A stretch of 62,892 bases of DNA, taken from contig JAGBFR010000006.1 in the NCBI GenBank assembly GCA_017936375.1, positions 1 to 62,892 on the forward strand, written 5' to 3'. The DNA is from Clostridia bacterium (GTDB lineage Bacteria > Bacillota > Clostridia > Christensenellales > Aristaeellaceae). Below are positions 45,522 to 62,633 of the stretch, piece after piece. The notes under the pieces are model-generated. The model searched no databases and had not been told where the DNA came from. It worked only from the letters and a program-made list of their open reading frames with translations. A program made the position numbers and the translations under genes. Position 1 is the first letter of the stretch, and each line of letters starts with the position of its first letter.

Positions 45522-45540
45522 TTCTGCTGTAGCAATGGGA

Positions 45541-45969: not shown

Positions 45970-46002
45970 GCTCAGGCCGCCTTTCTGCGAAAACAGTTCG
46001 CC

Positions 46003-46560
46003 TTACGCGCGGGACATGTAGGAACCGTCGCGGGTATCCACACGGATCTTGTCGCCGATGTTGATGAACAGCGGAACAGAGATCTGATAGCCAGTCTCCA
46101 GGGTCGCCGGCTTGGTGGTGTTGCTGGTGGTGTCGCCCTTGAAGCCCGGCTCGGTGTCGGTAACCTCGAGCACGACGAAGTTCGGCGCCTCAACAGAGAA
46201 GGCCTTGCCCTTGAAGAAACGGATGGTGGCCATGGTCTCTTCCTTCATGAACTGGATAGCCTCCTCGACCTGATCCTGGGTCAGCGGGATCTGCTCGAAG
46301 CTCTCCGGATCCATGAAGTAGTAGAACTCGCCGTCGGTGTAGACGTACTGCATTTCCTTGGTCTCGATGGTCGCGCGCGGCTGCTTATCGGTCGGGTTGA
46401 AAGAACGCTCAACCACAGCACCGGTCATGACGTTCTTGAGCTTGGTGCGAACAAAAGCAGCGCCCTTGCCCGGCTTAACATGCTGGAAATCAACGATGGT
46501 CCAGACGCCGCCTTCCCACTCGATCGTCACGCCCTTACGGAAATCGCCTGCATTAATCAT
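46003..46560 (-). CDS. efp: Elongation factor P
   Basis: 185 residues. EF-P relieves ribosome stalling at proline runs. The KOW-like N-terminal domain has the tip loop VKPGKGAAF with Lys32, the residue modified in many species; OB-fold domains II and III follow (YEYMD-like [11 protein letters not shown]; the C-terminal [11 protein letters not shown]). ATG 46560 follows GAGGGA and matches the family N-terminus [10 protein letters not shown]. Confidence 0.97.
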
Positions 46561-46661
46561 GTGGAATCCCTCCAAATACTGTAAATATCCTGTATCTGAT
46601 GCACGCCGAACACCTTCCGCGTGCGGATGATGCCAAATCAGCCATGTGCATTCGTATAAAG

Positions 46662-46690
46662 ATTCTACCACGTTTTTGCTGAAAGATCAA
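46662..46690 (-). promoter_or_regulatory. Promoter of efp
   Basis: On the minus strand TTGATC (46690-46685) and TAGAAT (46667-46662) with a 17-bp spacer. The rest of 46691-46850 holds only a possible TACAAT (46795-46800) for the MFS gene. Confidence 0.65.
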
Positions 46691-46850
46691 GCGTTTTCCG
46701 TACTTTGACAGCCCTTCACACCTTATATCGGTGAATTTTATTTAATCCGTGTAAAATTCAATGGATAGCGATGGGATTTCGCCGTTATTCGTGGTACAAT
46801 ACTTCATACTGATTATCCCGTTACCAAGAAAGTGCAGGAGGACGCTCATC

Positions 46851-48131
46851 ATGAAGCTCAATTACAAACGCACCTTTCTGGTCGGCCTTGCCTTTTTATC
46901 CATCAGCGCATTCTGGCAGGCATACGACAATCTTGTTCCCCTGATTCTTCAGAACACCTTCCACCTCAATGAATCGCTGATCGGCGCCATCATGGCCATC
47001 GACAATGTGCTCGCCGTCTTCCTGCTGCCCATCATCGGCACGCTCTCGGACAAGGTCGACACCCCGCTTGGCAAGCGTACGCCTTTCATCATCGGCGGCA
47101 CAGCGGCGGCGGTCGTCTTCATGATGCTGCTTCCCTGTGCCGATCATACGCAGCAGCTGATGCTGTTCATACTGGCGCTCGGGCTGACCCTTCTGTCGAT
47201 GGCCTGCTATCGCTCCCCGGCCGTCGCGCTCATGCCGGATCTGACGCCCAAGCCGCTGCGCTCTGCGGCAAACGCCGTTATTAACCTGATGGGCGCCGTC
47301 GGCGGCCTCTATGCGCTGCTGCTCATCCAGTTCCTTGTGCCCAAGACCGAGCGCCCGAGCTACGCGGCCGTCTTTATCGGCATCGCCCTGCTGATGGTCG
47401 CCTCCGTCGTCGTTCTTGTAGCCACGATCCGCGAGCGCAAGCTCGCCGCGCAGATTGCCCGCGAGTATCCGGATGAAGAGGACGCCGCCCCCTCTGCTGC
47501 GCAGCCCAGCGGCAAGCTCGCGCCGGACGTCATGCGCAGCCTCCGGCTGATTCTCATCTCCATTTTCCTCTGGTTCACCGCCTATAATGCTGTGACCACA
47601 GCCTTCTCCCGCTATGCCGTCACCGTCTGGAAGATGGAGGGCGGCGGCTTCGCCAGCTGCTTGATGGTCGCCATGGTCGCAGCCATCATCAGCTACATTC
47701 CCACGGGCGCGCTTGCCTCCCGCATCGGCCGCAAAAAAACGATCCTCGTCGGCCTTGCGCTGATGCTGATCAGCTACACCTCCGTGCTCTTCTATCCGAC
47801 GTATCATGTCTCCGCCAATCTTTTCTTTGCGATGATCGGCATCGGCTGGGCCGCTGTCGGCGTCAATTCGCTCCCGATGGTTGTGGAGATGAGCAAGGGC
47901 AGCGAGATTGGCAAATATACCGGCCTGTATTACACCTTCTCCATGACCGCCCAGATCTTCACGCCCGTCATCTCCGGCGCGCTGCTTCAGTATGTATCCT
48001 ACAGCACGCTCTTCCCGTATGCGATGTTCTTTACCTTCTGCGCAATGATCACCATGAGCATGGTCCGCCACGGAGATTCCAAGCCCATTCCCAAGAAGAG
48101 CAAGCTCGAACAGTTTGACACCGAAGACTGA
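46851..48131 (+). CDS. MFS transporter (SLC45/GPH sugar-type)
   Basis: 426 residues, 12 membrane segments. The loop after helix 2 has GTLSDKVDTPLGKRTPFI, matching SLC45-like and glycoside-pentoside-hexuronide transporters. The central cytoplasmic loop is charged (about 205-225). Substrate unknown, perhaps a disaccharide. ATG 46851 follows CAGGAGG. A GDPD gene follows 26 bp later. Confidence 0.85.
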   Translation: MKLNYKRTFLVGLAFLSISAFWQAYDNLVPLILQNTFHLNESLIGAIMAIDNVLAVFLLPIIGTLSDKVDTPLGKRTPFIIGGTAAAVVFMMLLPCADHTQQLMLFILALGLTLLSMACYRSPAVALMPDLTPKPLRSAANAVINLMGAVGGLYALLLIQFLVPKTERPSYAAVFIGIALLMVASVVVLVATIRERKLAAQIAREYPDEEDAAPSAAQPSGKLAPDVMRSLRLILISIFLWFTAYNAVTTAFSRYAVTVWKMEGGGFASCLMVAMVAAIISYIPTGALASRIGRKKTILVGLALMLISYTSVLFYPTYHVSANLFFAMIGIGWAAVGVNSLPMVVEMSKGSEIGKYTGLYYTFSMTAQIFTPVISGALLQYVSYSTLFPYAMFFTFCAMITMSMVRHGDSKPIPKKSKLEQFDTED

Positions 48132-48157
48132 TCCAGCAAACCAAAGGAGGAACCGCT

Positions 48158-48973
48158 ATGATTACCCTACTGATTCTCCTCGCCGTCGTCGTGTCGGCCT
48201 ATCTCTTTCTCATCATGCCGCGTATGGCAGGAAGGCCCGATTTTTCCCCGCTGATGGGCTGGCACTATGCCCACCGCGGTCTACACGACAATGCATCCGA
48301 CGCGCCCGAAAACTCCATGGCCGCCATCCGCAAAGCCGTAGACGCCGGATACGGCATCGAGTTCGACGTCCAGCTGACAAAGGACAGGGTTCCCGTCGTC
48401 TTTCATGACGAATCGCTCAAGCGCGTCTGCGGCGCAGCGGGCAATGTCCGGGATTACACCTACGATGAATTGCAGGCCTTTCCTCTCATGAAGAGCGAGG
48501 AGCGCATCCCGCGCTTTGCCGACGTGCTTTCCGCCGTGGATGGCCGCGTTCCGCTGATCATTGAAATCAAGATCCACGAAAACGCCGCCGAGGTCTGCTC
48601 CACAGCTGACGCCGTACTCAAGCTCTACAGCGGTCCCTACTGTATGGAATCCTTCCATCCGCTCGCTGTCCATTGGTATCGCAAAAACCGTCCTGAGGTC
48701 ATTCGCGGCCAGCTCTCCTCCAATTTCAACAGTGCGGACAAGCGCGAACCCTTCAGCCAGTTCCTCGTGCATCATCTGCTGACCAATTTCCTCGCGCGGC
48801 CGGATTTTATTGCCTATGCGCATGCGCACAAGGGCAACCTCTCCCGCCGCCTTTGCCGCACGCTCTTCGGCGCGTTGAGCGTCGCATGGACGCTCCGCTC
48901 TCAGGAGGAGCTTGACGCCTGCAGAGACGACTTTGACCTCTTTATCTTCGAGAGCTTCATTCCCAAGTCATAA
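48158..48973 (+). CDS. Glycerophosphodiester phosphodiesterase, membrane-anchored
   Basis: 271 residues. One N-terminal membrane helix (about 3-22) precedes a GDPD TIM barrel: HRGLHDNASDAPENSMAA (metal-binding His and Glu), GIEFDVQLTKDRVPVVFHD, and PLIIEIK. It hydrolyses glycerophosphodiesters from phospholipids to glycerol 3-phosphate. ATG follows AAAGGAGG. Confidence 0.92.
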   Translation: MITLLILLAVVVSAYLFLIMPRMAGRPDFSPLMGWHYAHRGLHDNASDAPENSMAAIRKAVDAGYGIEFDVQLTKDRVPVVFHDESLKRVCGAAGNVRDYTYDELQAFPLMKSEERIPRFADVLSAVDGRVPLIIEIKIHENAAEVCSTADAVLKLYSGPYCMESFHPLAVHWYRKNRPEVIRGQLSSNFNSADKREPFSQFLVHHLLTNFLARPDFIAYAHAHKGNLSRRLCRTLFGALSVAWTLRSQEELDACRDDFDLFIFESFIPKS

Positions 48974-48988
48974 GACGCCCTATCGCAA

Positions 48989-49024
48989 AGCGCAGCGTTT
49001 CTTCAGAGACGCTGCGCTGTTTTT
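48989..49024 (+). terminator. Terminator after the GDPD gene
   Basis: AGCGCAGCGT and ACGCTGCGCT form a 10-bp stem, followed by GTTTTT. The opposite strand could also use it for sigK. Confidence 0.85.
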
Positions 49025-49047
49025 ACGCTATTCGCCGTTTTCTGCTC

Positions 49048-49419
49048 TTATTCCGATGTACCCTGTTCAAAAGCAAGCTTCAGCCTCTCCATGGCCTTTT
49101 TTTCAATCCGGGAGACATAAGAGCGGGAGATACCCAGCATCTGCGCCACCTCCTGCTGGGCATGCATCTGTCCATCCAGAAGGCCATAGCGCATATCAAT
49201 CACCGTTTTTTCTCTTCCTTTGAGGCATTGATCAGCCAGTCTACGCACGCTCTGCAGGCTGAGCCTGCGCTCCACCTCGCCATGCACATGCGCCTCGTCC
49301 GTTCCCAATACGTCGCTGAGCGTAACCTCATTGCCCTCTGCGTCCGTGCCGATAGGCTCCTGAAGGGAGACCTCCCCCTTCCTTTTCTGGCTGGCGCGCA
49401 GGCACATGAGAATTTCATT
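49048..49419 (-). pseudogene. sigK: C-terminal half of sigma factor SigK, split by an intervening element
   Basis: 123 codons beginning N-E-I-L-M and holding the end of region 2, region 3 (KGEVSLQEPIGTDAEGNEVTLSDVLGTD) and region 4 (LGISRSYVSRIEKKA) of SigK, the last mother-cell sigma factor of sporulation. In B. subtilis and C. difficile sigK is interrupted exactly before this N-E-I-L-M by the skin element; the N-terminal part (regions 1 and 2) is not adjacent here. The open frame continues upstream but that part lies inside the recombinase gene and is not SigK-like. This is best read as a developmentally split gene, not decay. SigE is less likely from the sequence. Confidence 0.88.
49411..49419 (-). 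other. Recombination core (att half-site) of the sigK element
   Basis: On the minus strand AATGAAATT lies at the exact join between skin-like DNA and sigK. AATGA is the conserved crossover sequence of the B. subtilis sigK rearrangement. The same bases carry the TGA stop of the recombinase gene (49417-49415). The partner site should lie beyond the right window edge. Confidence 0.7.
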
Positions 49420-51241
49420 TACTATCTGTTCTCTGTTGTAACAGCGGGCTGAGCCCGCTTCCACTTGCGCTTCGCGGCGGCCTGAGGCCGCTTTCGGTTG
49501 CGCTTCGCGCCGTATCAGCGACGTTTCCTTCGCACGGAAGGTGCTCGGAAACTGCTTCGTCATCATCAAGGGAAAGTATGCCTGTGAGATCAACGTCGCC
49601 CTCCGCACCGAAGAGAACCAGATGCGCCTTTTCGCCGTCCCATACCACCTTGCGCACCAGCGTGCTGATCATCGTGCGCTGCTGCTCAAGGCCAAGCCCG
49701 TCGATGCTCCCGGCAAATGTGGTCAGCAGATCACGCAGGACGTCGAACTCGCTGTCACTGAGCTCCTGCTGACTGGCCAGCGCTTCCATCTCGCTGAGAC
49801 GGATCTCCATCGCCTCGCGTTCGCACCCCAGCGCCTCGATGCGACAGGACACCTGCCTGCGCGCCACGCCCTCGGTCATATCCGCCAGGGAGTCGACCAG
49901 CGCTGTCATCTTCTTATCCAGCTGCGCAAGCTCTTCCTGCAAGCCGGCGCGCGTTTTATCCACATCCTCGCGCTTGCCTGTGTAGAACTTCTTGCTCTCC
50001 TCCAGCTGGGCAAGGAAGTTCTCCTTGTCCTCGCCCAGCTGCTTGATCTCCTCAATGATCGCGCTGTCGAGCCAGTTGCCGCGAACGTTCTTGCGGTTGC
50101 AGAGCTCCTTCCTGCTGCGCTCCTTCATGTTACAGACGTAAGTATATTGAAATCCGCCGTCCGGATCGGGCCGCTTGGAGACCTTCGGATACATCTTGTT
50201 GCCGCATGCACAGAACAGCAGTCCCGTCAGCAGCGCTTCGTGGCTGCGCGGCCTGCGGAAGGCCTTCGACTTGTTCTGATTAAGCAACCGCTGCACCTTC
50301 AGCCATTCCTTCGAGGGAATCAGACCGACATGTGCGCCGACCGCGATGATCCATTCCTCAATCGGCAGATAGACCGTCGATTTGCCCTTGTTCTGATCGG
50401 TGCGGTTGTAGCACATCACGCCGTGCTGCCCGTCGAATGCAGAGCGCTCAGAGAAGAGGTCCGCGTCCTTTTCGAGGAAGTAATCATACACCGCGCCGTC
50501 GGCCACAACATAAACAGGGTTCTGCAGAATCGCCTTGATCGAGAAGCGCGTGAACTGGTAGCCGTTCTTCGTCGTGACGCCGCGCCTCATCAGCTCCGCT
50601 TCCGTCGAGGTGAGCGACCGCGTCTCAAGGAAAAGATCATACACCATCCGGACGATCTGCGCTTCTTCCTCAACAAGCCTGAGCTTGCAGGCCTTCTTCG
50701 TCTTGCCGTCCACGGTCACGCTCTTCACGCTCTCAGAGACGAAGCCCGTCGGCGTGATGCCGCCCAGCCAGCGCCCGGTCTTCGCCAGCTCATGCATGTT
50801 GTCGCGGATGCGCTCGGCGATCGTTTCGCGCTCCAGCTGAGAAAACACCGAGGCGATATACATCATCGCGCGGCCCATCGGCGATTCCGTATCGAACTGC
50901 TCGCGGATGGAGATGAATGCCACGTTCAGCCTGCCCAGTTCCTCGATGAGCGTGGAGAAGTCGCTGATGTTTCGGCTGATGCGGTCGAGACGATAGACGA
51001 TGATCGCGTCGATCTCATGCGCACGCGCCGCCTTCATCATTTTCTTAAAATCCGGCCTTTCCAGATTGCCGCCGGAGAACCCCTCATCCTCATATATGAG
51101 AATATCTTTCTCCTTCACGTCCGCGTAGTGCATGCGGATGAACTCGCGGCAGAGCTCGACCTGATTGCCGATGCTCTCTCCCTTGCCGGTGAACTTCGAC
51201 TTACGGGAGTAGATCGCGACGCGGCGGATGTTTCCCTTCAT
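49415..51241 (-). CDS. spoIVCA: Large serine recombinase (SpoIVCA-like)
   Basis: 608 residues. N-terminal resolvase domain with catalytic S12 (AIYSRKS), GFSGGNLERPDF, YRLDRISRN and SPMGRAMMYIASVFSQLERE. A recombinase domain (about 160-280), a zinc ribbon (FCACG; VCN and LCN cysteines, about 335-390) and a long coiled coil (about 410-500) follow. The C-terminus ends in two 11-residue repeats. SpoIVCA excises the skin element in the mother cell so that an intact sigK forms; position and orientation here fit that job. Somewhat longer than B. subtilis SpoIVCA. ATG 51241 with GGGGTG upstream. Confidence 0.9.
   Translation of the reverse strand: MKGNIRRVAIYSRKSKFTGKGESIGNQVELCREFIRMHYADVKEKDILIYEDEGFSGGNLERPDFKKMMKAARAHEIDAIIVYRLDRISRNISDFSTLIEELGRLNVAFISIREQFDTESPMGRAMMYIASVFSQLERETIAERIRDNMHELAKTGRWLGGITPTGFVSESVKSVTVDGKTKKACKLRLVEEEAQIVRMVYDLFLETRSLTSTEAELMRRGVTTKNGYQFTRFSIKAILQNPVYVVADGAVYDYFLEKDADLFSERSAFDGQHGVMCYNRTDQNKGKSTVYLPIEEWIIAVGAHVGLIPSKEWLKVQRLLNQNKSKAFRRPRSHEALLTGLLFCACGNKMYPKVSKRPDPDGGFQYTYVCNMKERSRKELCNRKNVRGNWLDSAIIEEIKQLGEDKENFLAQLEESKKFYTGKREDVDKTRAGLQEELAQLDKKMTALVDSLADMTEGVARRQVSCRIEALGCEREAMEIRLSEMEALASQQELSDSEFDVLRDLLTTFAGSIDGLGLEQQRTMISTLVRKVVWDGEKAHLVLFGAEGDVDLTGILSLDDDEAVSEHLPCEGNVADTARSATESGLRPPRSASGSGLSPLLQQRTDSK
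49444..49509. repeat. Two tandem 33-bp units, each with a 15-bp palindrome
   Basis: Units at 49444-49476 and 49477-49509. Each starts with a palindrome (GCGGGCTGAGCCCGC or GCGGCCTGAGGCCGC) and ends in a near-identical arm (TTCCACTTGCGCTTCGCG or TTTCGGTTGCGCTTCGCG). They lie 25 bp from the recombination core, inside the 3' end of the recombinase gene, and encode two 11-residue repeats. Confidence 0.85.
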
Positions 51242-51280
51242 GGTGCTTCACCCCGTTTCATTTGATGTTATTTCGTCATT

Positions 51281-51309
51281 ATTGTACCTTAGCGTAATGC
51301 GTCTGTGAA
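51281..51309 (-). promoter_or_regulatory. Probable promoter of the recombinase gene
   Basis: On the minus strand TTCACA (51309-51304) and TACAAT (51286-51281) with a 17-bp spacer. B. subtilis spoIVCA is read by SigE; I cannot tell whether this is a SigA or a SigE-type site. The gap 51310-51495 shows only a GGCGCG/CGCGCC hairpin (51366-51387). Confidence 0.45.
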
Positions 51310-51495
51310 GAGGGTTTTCATTTTTCCTGAGGTTTTGGTGTGAGAAATAGGATGGAATAGGAAAAGGCGCGCCAGATCAAGCGCGCCCAGTATTCTATCT
51401 TCCTCATTGTTTCAATCATTGATGATCGCCGATCACAGATGCCGTATGTGATTCCATGGACCATCTCAGCGAGTCAACAGATGATCACAATCCTG

Positions 51496-53130
51496 TTATC
51501 GTCCAATAAACTCCATCAGCTGCTGGATATTCTTTTTGCCAAAGGTGATCCGGTCGTCACCCATCACCAGACATGGCACGCTCATCACGTTATACTGCTT
51601 TTTCATCTGCTCAAAATGCGCAAGATCATACGCTTCGGCAGTGATTTTCGGATTGAGCGACGCCATGCGCTGCGCTGCAATCACCAGATCGGGACACATC
51701 GTGCAGGATAGAGAGACGAGGATCTTCATGCTGACGGGATGCTCAATCGCCTCGATAGCCCGTCTGATATCCTCGTCCAGCGCCTGTCCCGGGCCGCTGG
51801 CATTGTACAGCCCCAGCACAAAAGACGTGAATTCATGCCCCCCGGGAACGCCATGGAAAGCAAGCCCCGTCGGCGTTCCATCCGCCAGGCAGATCTGAAC
51901 GCAAGGCGCCATTTCCGAAGAGGCATCGCGCCGAGCCACCTGCATGCTGAGCTTGTCCGTCATCTCCGCCAGAGATGAGATAAAGGATTCCAGCTCCGCC
52001 GAGACCGGACGGCTGTCCAAATAAAGCGTCAAACGCAGCGGACGAGCCATCCGGCTGAACACAGTGTCCAGCTGCCGACACATTTCCGGCGTGAACACGG
52101 AATCGCTCTCATGCGCGTCTTCCTCAGGCGCGGAGGATATCTCTTTCTTCTCAGACGTTAGCTGCTGCGGGTGAATGCCTGTTTTTCGCTGCATCATCGC
52201 GGCGTATTTTTCCAGCTCCGTTGCGGCCAGCGCGCCGTCGCCCGTGGCCGTCACCACCTGACGCAGCGGCTTGATGCACACATCGCCCGCCGCATATACG
52301 CCCTCCACGCTGGTTTTGAGCGTTCCGTCCGTAATCACGTAGCCCTTATCATCCAGCCTGACAAGTCCTTTCACCAGATCGGTCGCCGGTTCATAGCCAG
52401 CAAAGACAAATACGCCGAAGGTTTCTCCGTCTTGGCTTTGATACTCCGTGATCTCACCGGTCTGCGTGTTCTTCCATCGCGCGTGGTCAAGGCCATTTTC
52501 TCCGGAAACCTCCAGCAGCTCTGTGAAGGGCAGAATCGTGATCTTCTCATGCTGCCGGGCAGGCTGAGCCGCCGCCTCGGCGCAGGTAAAGTCCTCGCTC
52601 CTCATCAGGATGGTGACATGCCGGGCAAATTTCGTCAGGAAAACGCTTTCTTCTGCCGCTGCAAAGCCGCCGCCCACGACAAACACTTCCTTGCCGGTGA
52701 AAAACTCGCCGTCGCAGGTAGCGCAGTAGGCAACGCCCCGGCCCTTGTGTTCCTCTTCGCCCTTGAAGCCCACCATGCGGGGATGCGCGCCCGTGGCCAG
52801 CAATACGCCGAAGCACCGAAAATCTCCCCGCCCGGTGCGAACCGTCTTGATATCGCCCGTCAGATCCAGCCCGGTGGCCTCCGCCAATAGAAATTCCGCG
52901 CCGAATGCCTCCGCCTGCTGCTGCATGGTATCTGTCAGCAGCTTTCCGCTGGTTTTGCCGATACCGGGATAATTGACCACCTCGTGCGTAATGGTGATCT
53001 GCCCGCCAAACTGTTCCCTTTCCAGCACCAGCACCCGATAGCGCGCCCGGGCAAGATAGATGGCGGCGGTGAGCCCTGCAGGCCCACCGCCGATGATAAT
53101 CACATCATAGAGGTTTTTTGCGCTTGTCAT
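51496..53130 (-). CDS. ahpF: AhpF-type peroxiredoxin reductase with permuted domain order
   Basis: 544 residues. The first 310 are a thioredoxin reductase-like flavoprotein: FAD site IIGGGPAGLTAA, redox CATC at 136-139, NAD(P)H site VVGGGFAAAEE and late AAGDV. The last 190 resemble the AhpF N-terminal tandem thioredoxin folds: F1 with GHEFTSFVLGL and F2 with SLSCTMCPD (CxxC 476-479), LNPKI and VMSVP. In normal AhpF these come first, so the order is swapped. It should reduce the AhpC encoded just upstream. ATG 53130 overlaps the ahpC stop (TGATG). Confidence 0.88.
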   Translation of the reverse strand: MTSAKNLYDVIIIGGGPAGLTAAIYLARARYRVLVLEREQFGGQITITHEVVNYPGIGKTSGKLLTDTMQQQAEAFGAEFLLAEATGLDLTGDIKTVRTGRGDFRCFGVLLATGAHPRMVGFKGEEEHKGRGVAYCATCDGEFFTGKEVFVVGGGFAAAEESVFLTKFARHVTILMRSEDFTCAEAAAQPARQHEKITILPFTELLEVSGENGLDHARWKNTQTGEITEYQSQDGETFGVFVFAGYEPATDLVKGLVRLDDKGYVITDGTLKTSVEGVYAAGDVCIKPLRQVVTATGDGALAATELEKYAAMMQRKTGIHPQQLTSEKKEISSAPEEDAHESDSVFTPEMCRQLDTVFSRMARPLRLTLYLDSRPVSAELESFISSLAEMTDKLSMQVARRDASSEMAPCVQICLADGTPTGLAFHGVPGGHEFTSFVLGLYNASGPGQALDEDIRRAIEAIEHPVSMKILVSLSCTMCPDLVIAAQRMASLNPKITAEAYDLAHFEQMKKQYNVMSVPCLVMGDDRITFGKKNIQQLMEFIGR

Positions 53131-53693
53131 CACAGCTGTCCCACCAGATCCAGGCTGGGTTTCAGCGTTTCGGCGCCGGGCGTCCAGTTGGCCGGGCAGA
53201 CCTGATCGCCGTGAGCATGGACAAACTGGCACGCCTGCACCTTGCGCAAAAGCTCCTCCGCATTGCGGCCCACGTTGCCTGCAGTCACCTCATAGCCCAC
53301 GATCTTTCCCTCGGGATTGATGATGAACGTGCCCCGCTCCGCCAGACCGTCTGACTCGATCAGCACCTCAAAGTCGCGCGACAGCGCATGGGTGGGGTCG
53401 GCCAGCATGGGATAGTTGAGCTTGCGGATACGCTCGGAGGCGTCGTGCCATGCTTTATGCACAAAGTGCGTGTCCGTGGACACGGCATAAACCTCGCAGC
53501 CGATGCCGCGGAACTGCTCATACTTGTTTGCAAGATCCTCCAGCTCCGTGGGACAGACGAATGTGAAGTCCGCGGGATAAAAGAAGAAAACGCTCCATTT
53601 TCCGAGGATATCCTCCTTGGAGATGAATTTAAATTCGTTTCCGTGATACGCGTAAACCTTGAAATCGGATACTTCCTTATTGATCAGGGACAT
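53130..53693 (-). CDS. ahpC: Alkyl hydroperoxide reductase C (2-Cys peroxiredoxin)
   Basis: 187 residues. Peroxidatic Cys47 in ADFTFVCPTE and the resolving Cys in the C-terminal QVCPANW are present. It reduces H2O2 and organic peroxides. It lies between dfx (3 bp upstream) and the AhpF-type reductase (overlapping), so one transcript makes superoxide reductase, peroxidase and its reductase. Confidence 0.95.
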   Translation of the reverse strand: MSLINKEVSDFKVYAYHGNEFKFISKEDILGKWSVFFFYPADFTFVCPTELEDLANKYEQFRGIGCEVYAVSTDTHFVHKAWHDASERIRKLNYPMLADPTHALSRDFEVLIESDGLAERGTFIINPEGKIVGYEVTAGNVGRNAEELLRKVQACQFVHAHGDQVCPANWTPGAETLKPSLDLVGQL

Positions 53694-53695
53694 GT

Positions 53696-54076
53696 TTATT
53701 CCTCCTTTTTCCACAGGTCGTGCTGATTGCAGAACGCCCAGACCGAGCGAACCTCGTCCCCCTTGCACAGGGCAAACTTGGCTTTGGGCTTGTCGGTCGG
53801 CTTCAGGTGCGCATACTGGATGACGTGCTCCGCCTCCAGGCAGATCCATTCGATATAGTGCTCCTGCGTCATGGGATGCTCCACAGATCCAACCGTCACG
53901 TGAACGGTATCGCCGTCTTTGTGATAGACCGGAATATGCTTCTCGCCGGAAGCTTCGGTGGTTCCCGGCTCCAGGCGGCGCATCTTTTCGCCGCAGCACT
54001 GCACGCTCACGCCGGCATCGTGGATCATCGCCATGATATTGCCGCAATGTCGGCAGGTATAGAACGTTTGCTTCAT
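53696..54076 (-). CDS. dfx: Desulfoferrodoxin (superoxide reductase)
   Basis: 126 residues. The N-terminal desulforedoxin-like domain has a CRHC pair and a CC pair for one iron; the C-terminal neelaredoxin domain has EKHIPVY, HVTVGSVEHPM and the CNQHDLW end with the Fe ligands. It reduces superoxide to H2O2 without making oxygen, a typical defence of anaerobes. Start ATG 54076 with GGAGGG upstream. First gene of dfx-ahpC-ahpF. Confidence 0.92.
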   Translation of the reverse strand: MKQTFYTCRHCGNIMAMIHDAGVSVQCCGEKMRRLEPGTTEASGEKHIPVYHKDGDTVHVTVGSVEHPMTQEHYIEWICLEAEHVIQYAHLKPTDKPKAKFALCKGDEVRSVWAFCNQHDLWKKEE

Positions 54077-54175
54077 GCAATTCCCTCCTTCAGCATCAAG
54101 TATGTCCTGCCCGCGATAAATAATGCGCCGAAACGGGGACATAATAGCATGCAGTACCTGCAAGGAGTGTATGCG

Positions 54176-55591
54176 ATGGAAGCAAACAGATCCTATGTGA
54201 AAGGATTTATTCCCTATGCGCTGGCGGCGTTTCTTATCAGCGTGGTCGGCGGTTTTTCTGCCGTGCTGGGCCCGGCCTTTGTTAAGGACATGGGCATTGC
54301 CTACAACAATACGACGTGGACCGCGCTGGCGCAGGCGATGTCCACCGCTGCCTGCGCACCGATCCTTGGCAAGCTGGGCGACGTGCTGGGACGGCGCTTC
54401 ACGCTGCTTGTCGGCATCATCGTCTACACGCTGGGCAATGCGCTCGCAGCGCTCGCGCCGTCGCTGACGGTGATGCTGATCGCCCGGTTCATCGTCGGCG
54501 TGGGCAGCGCGGCGGTCGCGCCGGTGGTTTTGTCCTATATCGTCACCGATTTTCCGCCCCATGCCGTCGCCAAGGGCTTCTCCATGTACATGCTGATTTC
54601 CAGCGCATCGGTGGTCTTTGGCCCGGCGCTGAGCGGCCTGATCATCAACGCCTATGGCTGGCGGGCGATGGTCTGGGTCTGCGTGGCGATCTGCATCGCG
54701 GTGTTCATCCCCTGCGCGCTGCTTAAGGACAAAAACGCGCCGCACTGCAGACGGCTTGATCATTTCGACACTCCGGGCGCGGCGCTGGTGCTGATCTTCT
54801 TCAGCCTGATGCTGTGCATTCCATCCTTCGGCCAGAACTTCGGCTGGGGATCCTCCGCGTTCCTTAGCGTGCTGATCGCCACGCTGATCGCGCTTGCCGC
54901 CCTTGTGCTGGCTGAGCGCAGGGCTGTCCATCCCATTCTGCCCGGCAGCTTCATGCGCCGCCGCTTCTTCATCCTCAGCGTGCTGGCGCTGACGCTCACG
55001 CAGGGACTGATGCAGGCGAACATGACCAACACCATCGTGTTTGTCAACTATACGCAGCCGGACAATACTGTGATCTCCGCCTATGCCATTTCGGTGATGT
55101 ATCTGGGCATGTCGCTGGGCGCGGTATTCCTGGGGCCGCTGGCAGAACGGTTTGAACCGCGTGCCGTGCTGTCCTTCTCTCTGCTGCTGACCGGCGTCAG
55201 CTGCGCGCTGCTGCTGCGCTTCACCGCAGACGCCTCTGTGCTGCTGCTGATGTCGGCGCTGGGCCTGCTGGGCTTTGGCCTTGGCGGCAACGGCACGATC
55301 TTCATGAAAGTAGCGCTGAGCGACCTGCCCAGCAATCAGGCAGGCGCGGCCACGGGCACATACGGCCTGTTCAGGGATCTGGCTGCGCCCTTCGGCGTGG
55401 CTGTCTTCGTGCCGCTGTTTACCAATCGGATCACCGGCTATATGGCGCAGGGTCTGTCGGGCGCGGACGCTGCCGTGCAGTCCATCCATTCCCTGGCGAT
55501 CATCGAAATCCTTTGCGCAGCGGCAGGCATCGCCGTCGTACTGATGCTGCCCCGCATCCATCAGGAGAGGAGAAATCAATATGCGTCTTAA
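54176..55591 (+). CDS. MFS transporter (drug/anion efflux type), possible bile-acid transporter
   Basis: 471 residues, about 14 membrane segments. It has the MFS motif-A loop GKLGDVLGRRFTLLVG and motif C-like VVFGPALSGLIINAYGWRAMVWV of the DHA families. ATG 54176 follows AAGGAG. It runs divergent from dfx and overlaps the dehydrogenase gene by 11 bases, so the two are translationally coupled. A role in moving the substrate or product of the dehydrogenase is inferred only. Confidence 0.82.
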   Translation: MEANRSYVKGFIPYALAAFLISVVGGFSAVLGPAFVKDMGIAYNNTTWTALAQAMSTAACAPILGKLGDVLGRRFTLLVGIIVYTLGNALAALAPSLTVMLIARFIVGVGSAAVAPVVLSYIVTDFPPHAVAKGFSMYMLISSASVVFGPALSGLIINAYGWRAMVWVCVAICIAVFIPCALLKDKNAPHCRRLDHFDTPGAALVLIFFSLMLCIPSFGQNFGWGSSAFLSVLIATLIALAALVLAERRAVHPILPGSFMRRRFFILSVLALTLTQGLMQANMTNTIVFVNYTQPDNTVISAYAISVMYLGMSLGAVFLGPLAERFEPRAVLSFSLLLTGVSCALLLRFTADASVLLLMSALGLLGFGLGGNGTIFMKVALSDLPSNQAGAATGTYGLFRDLAAPFGVAVFVPLFTNRITGYMAQGLSGADAAVQSIHSLAIIEILCAAAGIAVVLMLPRIHQERRNQYAS

Positions 55592-56378
55592 GGGTAAAGT
55601 CATCCTTGTCACCGCTTCCACCCGGGGTATCGGTCTGGCCATCGTGAGGGCTTGCGCCAAAGAGGGCGGCATCATCTGCATGGCCGCCCGCGATCTCACC
55701 CGCGCTCAGGAAATCGCCAATCAGCTTTGCAGCGAAGGCTGCCGCGTGCATTGCGTCTACAACGACGCCACCAAGCCGGAAACCTTTCTTTCCATGGTCG
55801 AAGAAACCGTTGTAAAGGCCGGGCGCATCGACGTGCTGGTCAACAACTTCGGCACCTCCAATCCGGGCCGGGATCTGGATTTTACGCACACCGATCCGGA
55901 GGTCTTCATGAGCACCGTACAGCTCAATCTGCGCAGCGTGTTCATGACCAGCCAGGCTGCCGCCAGACACATGGCCAAACAGGGTGGCGGAAGCATCGTC
56001 AATATTTCCTCCGTGGGCGGCAGTGTGCCAGATATCTCGCAGATTGCCTACGGCACAAGCAAGGCAGCAATTAACTACCTGACAAAGCTGATCGCCGTTC
56101 ACGAAGCGAAGAACAAGATCCGCTGCAACGCCGTTCTGCCCGGCATGACCGCCACCGAAGCGGTGGAAAAGCACCTGAGCGGCGATTTCCGCGCGCTGTT
56201 TCTGAGGCATATTCCGCTCGGCCGGATCGGCCTGCCGGAGGAGATCGCGCAGGCAGTCATCTATTTTGCCAGCGACGAATCGGCTTATACCACCGGGCAG
56301 ATTCTCAGCGTATCCGGCGGCTTCGGACTGGGGACGCCGCTTTACGGCGAGCTATCCGGAAAGGACATGCGCAGGTGA
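55581..56378 (+). CDS. hdhA: Short-chain dehydrogenase resembling clostridial 7alpha-hydroxysteroid dehydrogenase
   Basis: 265 residues, classical SDR. Cofactor loop TASTRGIG (11-18), Arg37 (AARD) suggesting NADP(H), NN(F)G at 89-91, tetrad N116, S144, Y157, K161. The segments VPDISQIAYGTSKAAIN, IRCNAVLPG, FASDESAYTTGQI and the end GGFGLGTPLYGE closely follow, from memory, the NADP-dependent 7alpha-HSDH of Clostridium sardiniense/absonum, which oxidises the 7-hydroxyl of bile acids. A generic 3-oxoacyl reductase-type SDR remains possible. Confidence 0.68.
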   Translation: MRLKGKVILVTASTRGIGLAIVRACAKEGGIICMAARDLTRAQEIANQLCSEGCRVHCVYNDATKPETFLSMVEETVVKAGRIDVLVNNFGTSNPGRDLDFTHTDPEVFMSTVQLNLRSVFMTSQAAARHMAKQGGGSIVNISSVGGSVPDISQIAYGTSKAAINYLTKLIAVHEAKNKIRCNAVLPGMTATEAVEKHLSGDFRALFLRHIPLGRIGLPEEIAQAVIYFASDESAYTTGQILSVSGGFGLGTPLYGELSGKDMRR

Positions 56379-56422
56379 GCCGTGCTGGATCATGGCAGCA
56401 TAGCGGCGATATCACAGCAAAA

Positions 56423-57315: not shown

Positions 57316-57780
57316 TTACTTATCTCCCGTCAGGTACGCGAGGATTTCTGCTGCATTGGTATCCGGCTTGACCTTGGGCATCGCCTTTTCGATCATGCCG
57401 TTTTCGTCGATCACATACGTCGTGCGCACAACGCCCATGCTCACCTTGCCGTAGAGCTTCTTCTCCTGCCAGACGTCGTATGCCTTGATCGCCTCAAGCT
57501 CCGGATCCGCCAGCAGGATGAACGGCAGATCGTGCTTCGCGGCAAACTTCGCATGCGAAGCGACGGAATCCTTGCTCACGCCGATGACGACAGCATCGAG
57601 GGATTTGAACGCTTCAAAGCTTGCTGCAAACGCACAGGCCTGCCGCGTACACCCGGGCGTGTTGTCCTTCGGATAGAAATACAGAACGACCTTCTTACCA
57701 AGGAAACTAGACAGGGAAACGGAATTACCGTCCTTGTCAAAAAGAGTAAAGTCAGGTGCCTTTGCGCCAATTTCAAGCAT
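57316..57780 (-). CDS. bcp: Thioredoxin-dependent thiol peroxidase (Bcp/PrxQ)
   Basis: 154 residues. Peroxidatic Cys in YPKDNTPGCTRQAC with the second Cys five residues later, as in PrxQ-type enzymes. It reduces hydroperoxides with thioredoxin. The RTTYVIDENG strand is typical. It forms an oxidative-stress pair with yaaA. Confidence 0.95.
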   Translation of the reverse strand: MLEIGAKAPDFTLFDKDGNSVSLSSFLGKKVVLYFYPKDNTPGCTRQACAFAASFEAFKSLDAVVIGVSKDSVASHAKFAAKHDLPFILLADPELEAIKAYDVWQEKKLYGKVSMGVVRTTYVIDENGMIEKAMPKVKPDTNAAEILAYLTGDK

Positions 57781-57829: not shown

Positions 57830-58303
57830 TCAGTTTTCCTCTGATGGTTGATTATCCGCTGCGATCTGCATCAGCAGCTTTCGAAACGCCCCTTCAAAGG
57901 CTTCATCTTCTTCCTTCGTCCTCTTCTTCGGCCCTTTGAGATGATGCTTCCCCTTGCCCATTCTCGCCTTTCGCGCCAGATGGCGCTCCATGAGCATCTG
58001 GTCGATGTTTTCCTGCGTATACAGTCCGCCGCTCTGATGAATCGCATACGCACCCTTACCAAGCGCCAGTGCCGCCACACCGTAGTCCTGCGTCACGACG
58101 ACGTCGCCTCGTCTGCACAGATTGATCAGCGCAAAATCCACTGCGTCTACACCGGCTCCAATCACTTTGATTTCGCTGTACTCGGAAGTCAGCGCATGAT
58201 TCGTATCGCACAGCAGCGTCACAGGAATGCCGCTGGCTTTCGCCACGCGCTCAACAATCCGCACCACCGGACACGCATCCGCATCAACAAGAATTCTGGG
58301 CAT
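57830..58303 (-). CDS. YaiI/YqxD family protein (DUF188)
   Basis: 157 residues. PRILVDADACPVV at the start and TQDYGVAALALGKGAYAIHQSGG are the family signatures; the PIN-like fold suggests a nuclease, unproven. It lies 50 bp upstream of bcp on the same strand, perhaps in the same operon. The tail is charged (KGPKKRTKEEDE). Confidence 0.92.
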   Translation of the reverse strand: MPRILVDADACPVVRIVERVAKASGIPVTLLCDTNHALTSEYSEIKVIGAGVDAVDFALINLCRRGDVVVTQDYGVAALALGKGAYAIHQSGGLYTQENIDQMLMERHLARKARMGKGKHHLKGPKKRTKEEDEAFEGAFRKLLMQIAADNQPSEEN

Positions 58304-58382: not shown

Positions 58383-59237
58383 TCACACCGCGGTTTTCGT
58401 ATTTACTTCTTCCCCGATATGCGGCGCATGCATTTTCACTTGCGACTGTGCAGCCATCGCGTTCATCAGCCGAAGCATCAGCTGTGCTAACAGCGAACGC
58501 GAAACATCATCCATCGGGATTCTCTCGTTCAGTTTTTCCAGCACGATAAAGATGACGTCTTCCTTTTCGATCTTCTCCCTCCTTCCCCACTTCGCGCGGA
58601 TCTTCTCCCTGAAAGCGTTCAGCATGGAAGCCGTCATCGTCTGCTTGGGCAATTCGCGATGATCCATCTTCTTCACATCGCGAAGAATTTTCATAAAGAG
58701 ATTTTTGATTTTCTCCATATCCGCTTCGTGCGTGCAGAGTTTCTGTGCACTCAGTTGGAGCATGTCCTTCTGAACTTCCTGCTGTTTTTTCGGCCGGCTC
58801 ATGCTCCATTCGTCCGCCATGTCCGTCATAAAGTCAATCATTTCATTGCGGGCCATGTTGCCAATCTCAAGGCTGTTGTCCAGATATGCGCGCATCAGAA
58901 AGAGCACCTTTGCAAATTCTTTGTGCTCCAGCAAACGGCTGAGCATCTCCAAATCCAGTTTGCCGCTCGCAAGCTGAATGGCAGCGTCTTCAGAAATATT
59001 CATCTGAACGACGTCCAGATTTTTCTTCGTCCGCACGTCAGTCAGCCCCAGAAGATAATCCGCCGACACATCAAACACTTCCGCAAGCCGAATCAGAATA
59101 TCGCTGCTGAGCGTTCCGGTTTCGCCGCTTTCACTTCTGCTGACCTGCGAATGACTGATGCCAAGCCTCCTTGCAAGCTCCGTTTTCTTCCAGTTGCGTT
59201 CTTCTCTGAGTTGGGTGATTCTCATTCCGATCTCCAT
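58383..59237 (-). CDS. XRE-family helix-turn-helix regulator
   Basis: 284 residues. An N-terminal HTH_3 domain (about 5-60) has ELARRLGISHSQVSRSESG; a further 220 helical residues without a motif I recognise follow, possibly for ligand or partner binding. Regulators of this kind often sit at the edge of integrated elements. ATG 59237 has AAAGGAG 8 bp upstream; TTG 59261 has none. It is divergent from the mobilisation genes. Confidence 0.85.
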   Translation of the reverse strand: MEIGMRITQLREERNWKKTELARRLGISHSQVSRSESGETGTLSSDILIRLAEVFDVSADYLLGLTDVRTKKNLDVVQMNISEDAAIQLASGKLDLEMLSRLLEHKEFAKVLFLMRAYLDNSLEIGNMARNEMIDFMTDMADEWSMSRPKKQQEVQKDMLQLSAQKLCTHEADMEKIKNLFMKILRDVKKMDHRELPKQTMTASMLNAFREKIRAKWGRREKIEKEDVIFIVLEKLNERIPMDDVSRSLLAQLMLRLMNAMAAQSQVKMHAPHIGEEVNTKTAV

Positions 59238-59426
59238 GTGTGTTTCTCCTTTCTCGTCCAATTCTGCACAGCATCTATTTCATCTTGTATGCCGATTTGC
59301 AATTCCGTGCAGAACCCAGCGCATGCCTTTAGACTCTGCTACAATGGCACCACGATCTGACGCGGCAGTCCGTCATCAGGAACAAGCCGTACGCCATATC
59401 ATGGAGCAGTCGGGAGGTGTTGCGCT

Positions 59427-59618
59427 ATCAAGGCTCGGCAAAAAATCTGCATCGTCGTGCATAAGCCCTCAACCCCTGAAGGGCAGCGCGAACTGATGGC
59501 GCGCACAGCCTCCGCACACGCTGATGCCGTCAGCAGTCATCTTCGAAATCTGAACTGCTCCGGCAAGCAAAAGGCTGCACTCATCGACGCAGTGATTCAG
59601 ACTACCAGACAGCAATAA
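59427..59618 (+). CDS. Small unidentified reading frame, start unclear
   Basis: A frame open from a TGA near 59358 to TAA 59616 encodes a protein-like stretch (KICIVVHKPSTPEGQREL, then a helical ARTASAHADAV and SGKQKAALIDAVI). A ribosome site GGGAGG (59412-59417) lies 9 bp before an ATC codon at 59427; the first normal starts are GTG 59457 and ATG 59496. Short genes of this type occur near clostridial mobilisation genes. It may be a real small gene with a rare start, or a remnant. The rest of 59238-59426 shows no gene. Confidence 0.35.
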   Translation: MKARQKICIVVHKPSTPEGQRELMARTASAHADAVSSHLRNLNCSGKQKAALIDAVIQTTRQQ

Positions 59619-59679: not shown

Positions 59680-59852
59680 CTTTGTGCAAAATACCCCCTC
59701 TATGAATCACCAGAAAAAACGCCCCAAAGTTGCCTTCTTTCAGAAAAATAATCTTCAACAATTTTCAAAACGTTCAGCTTTTTCATTTCGCGCAAATAAC
59801 ACTCCCTAATATCCGTGACAAATTCAAGGGGATTCTCAAAGGAGCCACGCAT

Positions 59853-60164
59853 ATGGCTATCCGCGACGAAATTCGCGACCCTCTGCACCAGCAGCTCGAC
59901 AACGCAAACGCACAGAATCTTCTCTACGAACACCGCATCACGCGTCTTGAAAACCGCAGCCAGTATCTCGCAAACGGTGACCGAAGAAAACGCGTGCACC
60001 ACCTGTGCAACATGGGCGGCGCAATCCAATCTCTCTCTCCTCAGGCAGACGCATTGCCCAAGCCGCTGTTCTACGAATTCATGGAAGAAGTTTTTGCGCT
60101 CGCCGACGTACAGCGGCTGCTCGATGATTTTTCTTCGAGGGCAGCCAAGCCGGAGGACCTGTGA
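59853..60164 (+). CDS. DUF3847 family protein
   Basis: 103 residues. A predicted coiled coil (HRITRLENRSQYL) and a short basic motif (NGDRRKRVHHLCNMGGAIQSL) match DUF3847, small proteins encoded directly before MobA/MobL relaxases in clostridial elements and perhaps relaxosome accessories. ATG 59853 has AAGGAG 8 bp upstream. The stop overlaps the relaxase start. Confidence 0.78.
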   Translation: MAIRDEIRDPLHQQLDNANAQNLLYEHRITRLENRSQYLANGDRRKRVHHLCNMGGAIQSLSPQADALPKPLFYEFMEEVFALADVQRLLDDFSSRAAKPEDL

Positions 60165-61623
60165 TGGCGCTTTTTCATTTCAGCGTCACGCAGGTTCGGC
60201 GCAGTGCCGGTCAGAGCGTCATCGCTTCCGCCGCATATCGCGCAGGCGAAAAACTCTACAGCGAATACTACGGCGAAACCAACGACTACACCCGCAAAGG
60301 CGGCGTCATCCATACAGAGATTTTTCTTCCGCCTCACGCGCCGGACATTTACCGCGATCGGGCTACGCTCTGGAACGCCGTCAAAAAATCCGAAAAACAT
60401 CCCAAAGCTCAGATCGCCTACAGCTCCGATATCGCGCTGCAAAGCGAACTCACGATGGAAGAGAATATCGTGCTCGCTCGCGAATTCGTGCAGGCGAATC
60501 TCGTTGCCAAAGGTATGATTGCAGACCTTGCCGTACATGCGCCAGACAAGGAAGGCGGCCTCTCCAATCCTCACTTCCACGTACTGACCACCATGCGCCC
60601 GCTGAATCCGGACGGATCGTTCGCTGCCAAGCAGCGTCGAGAATATGCGCTCGACGAACACGGCAACCGCATCCGCGACGGCGACGGCAAGTACGTTTTC
60701 AATGCCATTCACACCACGGACTGGCACGCACCCGAAACGCTGGAAGCGTGGCGCGCTGCGTGGTGCGATCTGGTCAACCGCCGCTTTGAAAAAAAGGACC
60801 TCCCCTGCCGCATCGATCACCGATCCTACGCGCGGCAGGGAATCGACCAGATTCCCACCGTTCACGAAGGACCAAACGTGCACAAGATGGAATCCAAGGG
60901 CATCCGCACCGAAAAGGGAGAGCTCAATCGCTGGATCAAAACGACGAACCGGCTCATCTGCGACTTGCGCAAAAAGATTGCTGCACTGAAGGATTGGATG
61001 GAGGAAATCCGGGAAGAGCTTTCCAAACCCGAAGTGCCGCCGCTGATTCAGCTGCTCTGCGACCATTTTGAAAAACGCAATCAGGATGCGTATTCCAACA
61101 AAGGCAAGGTCCGCAACCTCAAGCAGTTCAGTGAAGTGATCAACTTCCTTGAGCAGCAGAATATCCGCACGCTTGATGATCATGAATTCCGTGTCAATTC
61201 CATTCGGGAGGAATTCCATACGCTTACCGATTCCCTGCAGGCAAAACAAAACGGATGGATGAACTGAAAAAGCTGATTTAAACCGCCGAGACTTACAAGG
61301 AGCTGAAACCCATCTTTGATGAAATGAATCAGATTCATTGGAAGGGCCGACGTGAAAAGTTCGCGCAGGAACACGACTCAGATCTCCGACGCTTCTACGC
61401 AGTGCGCCGCGTCTTGCAGGAGATGGTCGGCGACAAAAAGCTGCCGCCGAAGGCATGGCAAAACGAATTCGATCAGCTCAAATCAGAATATGGCAAGCTC
61501 GCCGCAGGCTATAAGCCGATCCGCGAAGAGATGCTCAAGCTCCTGCAGGTGCAGCACAACGTAGACGCAATTCTCAAAGACCGAGGCATCGATCCAAAGC
61601 ACCAGAATGAACAAACCAGATAA
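60164..61623 (+). pseudogene. mobA: MobA/MobL relaxase, broken by a frameshift and a stop
   Basis: The first 367 codons (60164-61267) are a MobA/MobL relaxase domain: FSVTQVRRSAGQSVIASAAYRAGE with a Tyr, and NPHFHVLTTMRPL with the metal-binding His pair. The frame then stops, but a matching C-terminal part continues in another frame: MDELKKLI (61255), an in-frame TAA at 61279, then TAETYKELKPIFDEMNQIHWKGRREKF to 61623. One A missing in the run 61248-61251 and a CAA-to-TAA change explain both lesions. The N-terminal catalytic domain could still be made. Such relaxases nick oriT for conjugative transfer. Confidence 0.85.
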
Positions 61624-61637
61624 CGGAGGAATTGCAA

Positions 61638-62633
61638 ATGAAGCAAAATCAACTACCCAGCGAACCGATGCTCTCACCCGTTCCCATGATCTGCATGCAA
61701 AACGTCGAGCAAACCAAAGTAAGTTGGCTGTGGTATCCCTACATTCCTTTCGGCAAGCTAACCATTCTGCAGGGCAATCCCGGCGAAGGCAAAACATACT
61801 TTGCCATGCAGCTGGCTGCCGCATGCACAACAGGAAAAGCACAGCCGAACATGACGCCGCTTGAACCATTCAACGTAATCTACCAAACCGCAGAGGACGG
61901 ACTCGGCGACACGGTAAAGCCGAGACTGATCGAAGCCGGAGCAGATCTCAGCCGCGTGCTGGTGATCGACGACGGCGACACTCCGCTGACGCTCTCCGAT
62001 GAACGAATCGGGCGCGCGATTACGGAGAATCGGGCGCATCTGCTGATCATCGATCCCATTCAGGCCTTCCTCGGCGCTGACGTGGACATGAACCGCGCCA
62101 ACGAAGTTCGCCCCGTTTTCCGCAAGCTCGGCGATATCGCCCAGCGTCACGCCTGCGCAATCATCCTGATCGGCCATCTCAACAAAACCGTCGGCGCTCA
62201 GAGCACCTATCGCGGCCTCAGCTCCATCGACATGACCGCTGCCGTGCGCAGTCTGCTCTTCATCGGCAGAGTCAAAAACGATCCTACCACCCGTGTGCTC
62301 ACGCACGAAAAGAGCTCGCTTGCACCACCCGGCAAGTCCCTCGCCTTCTCGCTGGGTACTGAAGAAGGATTCAGCTGGATCGGCGAATATGCCATCACCG
62401 CGGACGAGCTTCTGTCCGGTGAGGAGCATGCACAGACCAAGGTTGAGCAGGCCCAAAGCCTCGTCTTCTCCATGCTCAAAGGGTCCCGCACCTGCCGGAG
62501 CTCCGACATCGAAAAAGCAGCGGCTGAGCAAGGAATCGCCCCGCGCACCGTGCGCATGGCCAAGCAGCAGCTGGCGGGAAGGATCAAGATGTATCGCGAG
62601 GGAACTCAGTGGGTGGTTTGCATGAGGGAATGA
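61638..62633 (+). CDS. repA: RepA-like AAA ATPase of a mobile element
   Basis: 331 residues. Walker A GNPGEGKTYFAMQLA (about 47-61), Walker B HLLIIDPIQAFLG and GHLNKTVG place it in the RecA-like AAA_25/RepA hexameric helicase group of plasmids and integrated elements. The C-terminal 80 residues resemble a winged helix (AAAEQGIAPRTVRMAKQQL). ATG 61638 has GGAGG 8 bp upstream; 14 bp separate it from the relaxase remnant. Confidence 0.88.
   Translation: MKQNQLPSEPMLSPVPMICMQNVEQTKVSWLWYPYIPFGKLTILQGNPGEGKTYFAMQLAAACTTGKAQPNMTPLEPFNVIYQTAEDGLGDTVKPRLIEAGADLSRVLVIDDGDTPLTLSDERIGRAITENRAHLLIIDPIQAFLGADVDMNRANEVRPVFRKLGDIAQRHACAIILIGHLNKTVGAQSTYRGLSSIDMTAAVRSLLFIGRVKNDPTTRVLTHEKSSLAPPGKSLAFSLGTEEGFSWIGEYAITADELLSGEEHAQTKVEQAQSLVFSMLKGSRTCRSSDIEKAAAEQGIAPRTVRMAKQQLAGRIKMYREGTQWVVCMRE

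Follow-up and report, generated by a model that had tools for sequence, protein, structure and literature searches.

A split sigK gene adjoining a putative integrative mobilizable element in a Clostridia bacterium, and related recombinases at sigK in other Clostridia

The sigK 3′ half and its junction

The DNA analysed here (62,892 bp, hereafter the window) is the entire contig C73 of an assembly of a Clostridia bacterium (2.85 Mb in 75 contigs, completeness estimate 80.9 %). It contains the 3′ half of the sporulation sigma factor gene sigK, joined to the gene of a large serine recombinase (LSR) and to a putative integrative mobilizable element, of which the 13.4 kb from the junction to the contig end are visible (Table 1). 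Since the window is the whole contig, the sigK 5′ half is not visible in it. Below, C, G and L numbers designate contigs, genomes and fetched loci of relatives, respectively.

The minus strand of positions 49048–49419 encodes NEILMCLRASQ... up to the stop codon in an intact frame; the listed frame (49048–49608) continues into non-SigK sequence. The best family for 49048–49419 is SigK, matched from model position 104 or 106 onward only (PRK05803, E = 1.5e-43; TIGR02846, E = 3e-43), with both scores under the whole-protein cut-offs, as a half-length protein should give. The position of the border is exact and no coincidence: in blastn comparisons, homology to the intact sigK of relatives ends at 49419 or 49420, the start of the AATGA codons, in five of five loci (L063, L065, L072, L073 and L077), and homology to the right attachment site (attR) of a sister species of the same genus, G019, extends to 49444. 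As in skin elements, sigK is thus broken at an exact position, and its 3′ half continues into element DNA. The original prediction, that the fragment begins at the N-E residue pair before I-L-M of SigK and that a serine recombinase gene reaches this point, is borne out by the model matches, by the border in these five loci and by the recombinase gene (49415–51241, minus strand), which overlaps the junction with its last codons.

Constraint on the 3′ half is like that on intact sigK. The median proportion of non-synonymous differences between it and 12 intact sigK genes of the genus was 0.147, compared with 0.145 among the intact genes (66 pairs); the synonymous proportions were 0.63 and 0.56, respectively. 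A thirteenth gene, from L064, was dropped as the motif was not found in it at full length. This degree of constraint counts against loss of the 5′ half.

The recombinase and the attachment sites

The element-encoded LSR is complete and has all three LSR domains; its nearest NCBIfam models are XisF and Ccr, both scoring under their cut-offs. The SpoIVCA-type, skin-like element that had been predicted stands as a sigK-interrupting element with a serine recombinase, but its type has to be amended, given these nearest models, a gene order matching the one that PMC5025042 describes for the C. difficile skin, and a visible part that is mobilizable rather than phage-like.

The element arm of attR, CTGTTACA...GATAGTA, has an inverted counterpart, TGTAACAG, in the left attachment site (attL) of G019 and G016; these arms are found in the window (attR), in G019 (both sites, the attL arm being inverted relative to attR) and in G016 (attL). 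The element arms are inverted repeats, and in many relatives they read GCTATCCTC...ATGCGTTT in attL versus AAACGCAT...GAGGATAGC in attR. The 115 bp at 49445–49559, in the 3′ end of the LSR gene, do not align with G019, and the window has two palindromic repeats there. These palindromes, GCGGGCTGAGCCCGC and GCGGCCTGAGGCCGC (within 49444–49510), each lie beside a GCGAAGCGCAA-type word in the 3′ tail of the gene. This word is absent from the G019 contig examined, so the tails of the two proteins differ.

Gene content of the element

Judged by its genes, the visible part is a predicted integrative mobilizable element with oxidative-stress cargo, and not phage-like. It combines a site-specific integrase with a relaxase, in a block common to G019, whose contig ends within the relaxase gene. 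Five oxidative-stress genes are present in the visible part. Neither a conjugation pore nor phage structural genes appeared among the Pfam hits of the ORFs (open reading frames) scanned in these 13.4 kb. Relaxase homologs occur in at least 10 of 80 related loci, a lower bound because the loci reach no further than 10 kb to either side. For the RepA-like ATPase of the window, tblastn gave no match at E ≤ 1e-4 in 87 loci, and hence only the relaxase recurs. The cargo and the host lineage are both unlike those of the model species, as had been anticipated from the sequence.

Outside the element, positions 46279–49419 are collinear with the DNA adjoining the intact sigK of G005. The names of the first and third genes of this flank in Table 1, and the name Bcp, are our own assumptions.

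Table 1. Features of the window, with positions counted from its first nucleotide (MFS, major facilitator superfamily; RDF, recombination directionality factor)
Feature	Position	Strand	Evidence or remark
Chromosomal flank outside the element	46006..48970		presumed elongation factor P-like gene, 46006-46671 (-); MFS, 46761-48128 (+); presumed GDPD-like gene, 48158-48970 (+)
sigK 3′ half	49048..49419	-	starts N-E-I-L-M, stop at 49048; SigK models, blastn border, constraint
attR	49410..49444	-	element arm CTGTTACA...GATAGTA joined to core/host AATGAAATT
LSR, 608 aa	49415..51241	-	Resolvase, Recombinase and Zn-ribbon domains; stop inside junction
AhpF/thioredoxin-reductase-like flavoprotein with thioredoxin domain	51499..53232 (ORF bounds; start probably near 53130)	-	PF07992, PF13192
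AhpC-type peroxiredoxin	53133..53750	-	PF00578, PF10417
Desulfoferrodoxin (superoxide reductase)	53702..54082	-	PF01880, PF06397
MFS transporter	54128..55588	+	PF07690
Short-chain dehydrogenase	55581..56375	+	PF13561
Peroxide stress protein YaaA	56547..57314	-	PF03883
Presumed Bcp-type peroxiredoxin (AhpC-TSA family)	57319..57780	-	PF00578
YaiI/YqxD family (DUF188)	57833..58303	-	PF02639
XRE-type repressor-like regulator	58386..59261	-	Pfam HTH_3
63-codon ORF, candidate RDF	59427..59618	+	apparent ATC start behind GGGAGGTG
DUF3847 protein	59730..60161 (ORF bounds)	+	PF12958; just upstream of relaxase gene
MobA/MobL relaxase	60161..61264	+	PF03389, E 2.2e-84
AAA_25 RepA/DnaB-like ATPase	61632..62630	+	PF13481

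Recombinases of this group are mostly found at sigK

The LSR group of the window is mostly found at sigK. Among the best 80 of 412 LSR relatives in the genome collection, which include G019 itself, the sigK 3′ half lies downstream of the LSR gene on the same strand in 74 (73 by tblastn, and L101 by eye in translation). As to the remaining six, in L137 and L139 a sigK 5′ half flanks the LSR gene on its opposite side, the contig of L111 ends at the attR arm, and neither half was seen in L150. At L115, and likewise at L177 from the class sample described below, a related LSR gene adjoins an inverted sigK 5′ half instead of a 3′ half. In the sixth, L133, an attR arm is joined from position 11696 onward to non-sigK DNA, possibly because a sigK-type element inserted ectopically.

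In a quick tree of 109 LSRs, to which long-branch warnings apply, a set of 90 (support of 98 in the Shimodaira-Hasegawa-like approximate likelihood ratio test) comprises 83 LSRs adjacent to a 3′ half, two adjacent to a 5′ half and five labelled as not seen (L101, L111, L133, L139 and L150). Across the class, the LSR was present at E ≤ 1e-110 in 24 of 291 evenly drawn genomes, that of the window included. A sigK half lay within the fetched 1.5-kb flanks at 18 of the 26 LSR loci from the other 290 genomes (17 with the 3′ half, and L177 with the inverted 5′ half only), although species of this sample may overlap with those of the 80 relatives.

Several sigK 3′ halves with an LSR gene (L102, L106, L141, L147, L155, L158 and L082) come from isolates of Gemmiger, Faecalibacterium and Holdemania, genera described as non-sporing. 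The sigK LSRs of L082 (Holdemania, Erysipelotrichaceae) and L085 (a metagenome-assembled genome of Lachnospiraceae) are near-identical, with a tree path of about 0.02, pointing to a probable transfer between families.

Split sigK genes in relatives

A SigK-model search of 60 genomes (that of the window and 59 relatives) gave a match above the cut-off in 20, so intact sigK is common. In G019 the 3′ half is on contig C35 and the 5′ half, which ends in RCIEN, on C75; G040, from another family of the same order, also has both halves on two contigs, and G016 has a 5′ half only. We further looked for both halves in 40 of the 80 LSR-relative genomes, among the matches listed: they were on one contig in 18 and on two contigs in 14, with one half or an unclear picture in the other eight. 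In all 18 one-contig cases the halves are on the same strand, that is, in direct orientation, with the 5′ half upstream and a gap of 3.5 kb (G092) to 40 kb (G098). When the halves of 13 complete elements were joined at the AAT core, the SigK frame was kept in all 13, and the joined frame had no stop in 11 of them (one stop each in L136 and L152). The cultured commensal Catenibacillus scindens DSM 106146 is an example of a strain that has the two halves on a single contig, separated by 9.8 kb.

Just inside the sigK 5′ half there is an ORF for an XRE-type regulator in G019 (L059, 1220–1855) and in G040 (L062, 1222–1680). Locus L075 (G021, C4) contains a diverged sigma factor gene (8101–8634; SigK positions 46–222), alongside which the genome has a near-full-length match to sigK. 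In L063 (G003), an intact sigK (4113–4826) is accompanied by a degenerate sigK 5′ fragment 11 kb upstream (16040–16348), and the genes yaaA, bcp and yaiI lie between the two, together with a remnant that aligns to the end of the element XRE gene; this arrangement looks like a decayed element.

Recent movement of the element between species

Positions 49560–60412 of the window are 91.1–94.5 % identical to G019 in three blastn blocks, whereas on the chromosomal side identity falls to 73.2 % for the sigK 3′ half, 75.1 % for 42514–46698 and 83.6 % for 41152–42231, a conserved gene. The G019 contig has the same recombinase (96 %) and the same cargo order, plus one extra esterase-like gene. The jump in identity falls at the sigK site, as for an integrative mobilizable element moving between hosts, and a block of such high identity beside flanks of around 75 % indicates horizontal movement; the contig of each species crosses the junction, which means that contamination is not the cause. 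The comparison thus shows that the element has moved recently between these two species.

A small open reading frame as candidate directionality factor

Six small elements (3.5–5.7 kb) share, besides the LSR gene, one common small ORF on the strand opposite to it. A profile seeded from these six and rebuilt once from its hits gave hits to the ORF in 33 of the 106 sequences examined, among them the window, G019 and, at a weak level, G040 (two of the hits, L058 and L081, are the same contig). It was present in all 13 complete elements first examined, seven of them outside the seed, and its size in elements ranges from 60 to 75 aa. Among the 291 class genomes, 11 have the ORF, 10 of these with the LSR (hypergeometric P = 2e-11, or 2e-10 without the genome of the window), a linkage that favours itself to a degree because the profile came from LSR-linked ORFs. 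The genome with the ORF and no LSR is G175, a weak hit (E = 8.7e-5), and G282 (L204) has a sigK-adjacent LSR with no small ORF detected by the profile. In three genomes outside the model (L199–L201), the ORF is directly upstream of the LSR gene on the same strand (E = 1.4e-9 to 2.6e-11, database size set to 100).

The smallest elements, of 1.65 kb and from one genus (L183, L184 and L187, from G153, G277 and G119), consist entirely of a diverged small ORF and an LSR gene. They have a 70-codon ORF followed by the short LSR gene, the two overlapping at ATGA in L187. Their LSR has 449–455 aa and ends soon after the Zn ribbon, and an idea involving the coiled coil was set aside for that reason. Its linkage to the LSR and its presence in minimal elements, with G282 as an exception, lead us to propose the small ORF as a candidate RDF. 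It belongs to no convincing Pfam or NCBIfam family, having weak hits only, all under the cut-offs. AlphaFold2 models it as a two-helix hairpin (mean predicted local distance difference test score 87.4, predicted template modelling score 0.51).

The codon at the position homologous to the apparent start is ATC in 17, ATT in four, ATG in nine and TTG in one of 31 sequences, which are related and not independent (the duplicate L081 and the unplaceable L101 were excluded), and it mostly lies 5–8 nt behind GGGAGGTG or a variant of it. In the window, G019 and L135, no in-frame ATG, GTG, TTG or CTG occurs between the upstream stop and the ATC/ATT-position codon, and the next in-frame ATG, GTG or TTG follows 8–10 codons further in; many of the other ATC/ATT members have an in-frame GTG, overlapping the ribosome site, that is an alternative start. 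Coding constraint begins at the ATC/ATT-position codon and not upstream of it. Over 36 pairs of nine related sequences, substitutions from this codon on numbered 359, 231 and 691 at codon positions 1, 2 and 3, and differing codons were synonymous in 554 cases and non-synonymous in 456; upstream, the corresponding figures were 15 and 211, a count inflated by misalignment because the sequences were compared without gaps. The pair formed by the window and G019 (3/6) is too close to judge. The small ORF thus appears usually to start at AUC or AUU.

Interpretation and alternative explanations

We interpret the locus as an integrative mobilizable element inserted in sigK that would be excised in the sporulating mother cell by the LSR together with the small protein, restoring the gene, and we give this interpretation a probability of roughly 0.75. 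The LSR would have recombined attP with an attB inside sigK whose AAT core belongs to the N-E codons; the insertion would have divided the gene into a 5′ half next to attL and a 3′ half next to attR, the latter being the end seen in the window. The relaxase and the RepA-like ATPase would serve mobilization, with peroxide and superoxide defence genes as cargo. The gene would remain interrupted in vegetative cells; in a mother cell that sporulates, the LSR, directed by the small protein, would join attL to attR, releasing a circle and restoring sigK in frame. Excision and when it takes place, the function of the small ORF and the existence of a 5′ half in this genome are inferred from the features of the sequence, the relatives and the published C. 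difficile system. The matches to sporulation sigma factors and to SpoIIID in the genome, the latter under its cut-off, speak in favour of the interpretation. No intact sigK was found in the assembly (SigK model, E ≤ 0.001): the other matches are only on C8, C13, C39 and C18, and we take these to be SigE, SigG, RpoD and SigF, names that the search did not give. The complete sigK elsewhere in the genome that would have spoken against the original prediction was thus not encountered in an assembly that is 80.9 % complete.

Several findings weigh against this interpretation. The sigK 5′ half was not found in the incomplete assembly with the SigK and sigma-r2 models, and neither was the gene that adjoins the 5′ half in G019 and G016. 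The ancestral upstream neighbours of sigK, that is, the genes preceding the intact sigK of G005, are on C10 (81 % identity), followed by other genes, presumably a Tct transporter and leu genes, and not by a 5′ half. The genes upstream of the G019 5′ half have one strong match in the genome, on C28, but the 12 kb around it align to G019 across that match only and contain no 5′ half. Since the C10 block is not followed by a 5′ half and none was found elsewhere, the 5′ half of this genome is unassembled, moved or lost. In addition, four of the 40 genomes searched for both halves (G080, G088, G090 and G096) have a second full-length SigK-model match, so that the split copy need not be the sole sigK in every relative. 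The LSRs located on a 3′ half do not form a single clade in the tree, where 10 changes are needed because the sigK-adjacent LSRs L061, L178–L180 and L183–L187 fall among LSRs not seen at sigK; shuffling gave a mean of 16.1 changes, and none of 500 shuffles was as low as 10. Lastly, some relatives have cargo genes next to an intact sigK (ahpC and ahpF in G008; yaaA, bcp and yaiI in G003; bcp also in G009 and G012), so part of the cargo may stem from host DNA in the vicinity of sigK or have been exchanged with it. The idea that the cargo is just host DNA was rejected, in view of a block 91–94 % identical to G019 and the other side of the junction at around 75 %.

The absence of a 5′ half and the genes that directly follow the ancestral neighbours on C10 would both be expected from a dead remnant, in which the 5′ half was lost, sigK could not be rebuilt and sporulation would not be completed, with the LSR and cargo persisting as a mobile element; the degenerate copy in G003 illustrates that a 5′ half can decay. 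We consider this unlikely, because the 3′ half is constrained as in intact genes, the LSR gene, the 3′ half and the small ORF are all open, G019 retains both halves, and the contig ends 13.4 kb into the element with an estimated 19 % of the genome missing. That a chromosomal rearrangement or an assembly join placed an unrelated LSR gene beside a sigK fragment could be read from the cargo genes beside intact sigK and from the upstream context of sigK, which differs among most relatives listed. We nevertheless hold it to be next to negligible, as the same junction with the same LSR gene occurs in the independent assembly of G019, the arms of the attachment sites match those of two 5′-half junctions, and 74 of 80 LSR relatives sit on sigK. 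A phage-like skin of the B. subtilis type, with its phage genes beyond position 62892, would agree with the XRE regulator and with skin elements being prophage-like, as presented in the accessible portion of PMC5025042. It seems to us very improbable, considering that the visible part contains a relaxase, a RepA-like ATPase and metabolic cargo with no phage structural domain among its Pfam hits, and that relaxase homologs recur in related loci.

Relation to known elements and significance

Integrative mobilizable elements of the LSR type carry an LSR, a MobA/MobL relaxase and a RepA-like ATPase; the element described here differs in its insertion into sigK and in the proposed developmental excision. 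The skin element of B. subtilis, with the recombinase SpoIVCA, is phage-derived, about 48 kb long and has another gene order, but it likewise splits sigK by means of a serine-recombinase element excised in the mother cell, an excision that would be shared here. According to the accessible portion of PMC5025042, the skin element of C. difficile also interrupts sigK; the LSR gene directly precedes the 3′ moiety of sigK, and the attachment sites have inverted arms. Its LSR is CD1231 and its RDF is CD1234, a protein of 72 aa then without similarity to database proteins; the likeness to the 63-codon candidate of the window is one of size. In contrast to that element, described there as prophage-like, the one in the window is predicted to be mobilizable, with a relaxase and antioxidant cargo. 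The gin element of B. cereus, a non-prophage gene-intervening element with sporulation-specific rearrangement according to the part of PMC5595907 available to us, has gerE and not sigK as its target.

The skin principle is known already. In the open literature searched, outside which most subscription papers lie, we recognised no report that sigK elements are broadly distributed among gut Clostridia, nor one of an RDF initiated at AUC/AUU. As far as this literature goes, the apparent wide spread in Clostridia, the putative mobilizable type with oxidative-stress cargo, the predicted minimal form with two genes and the family of small ORFs that probably start at near-cognate codons would be new. 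More tentatively, and with somewhat more doubt than conviction, we suggest that, across Clostridia, sigK is widely used as a parking site by elements with largely sigK-dedicated LSRs, from two-gene units of 1.65 kb to cargo-bearing mobilizable ones. These would be controlled by an undescribed small RDF, whose mostly AUC or AUU start behind a very strong ribosome site would act as a brake on excision until late sporulation. Should the splits prove real and reversible, the programmed removal of DNA would be a common step of late sporulation in gut Clostridia, sigK would be overlooked or wrongly called in gene surveys, and the element would carry oxygen-defence genes from host to host. Thanks to the minimal elements and the candidate RDF, the mechanism lends itself to a direct test in E. 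coli.

The genome also has a match to SpoIIID (E = 2e-27, under the curated cut-off). The 230 bp upstream of the small ORF of the window contain no SpoIIID-like site, using the motif KRTAACARK as given in the accessible portion of PMC5025042; that the CTGTTACA arms of the attachment sites resemble this motif is only an idea.

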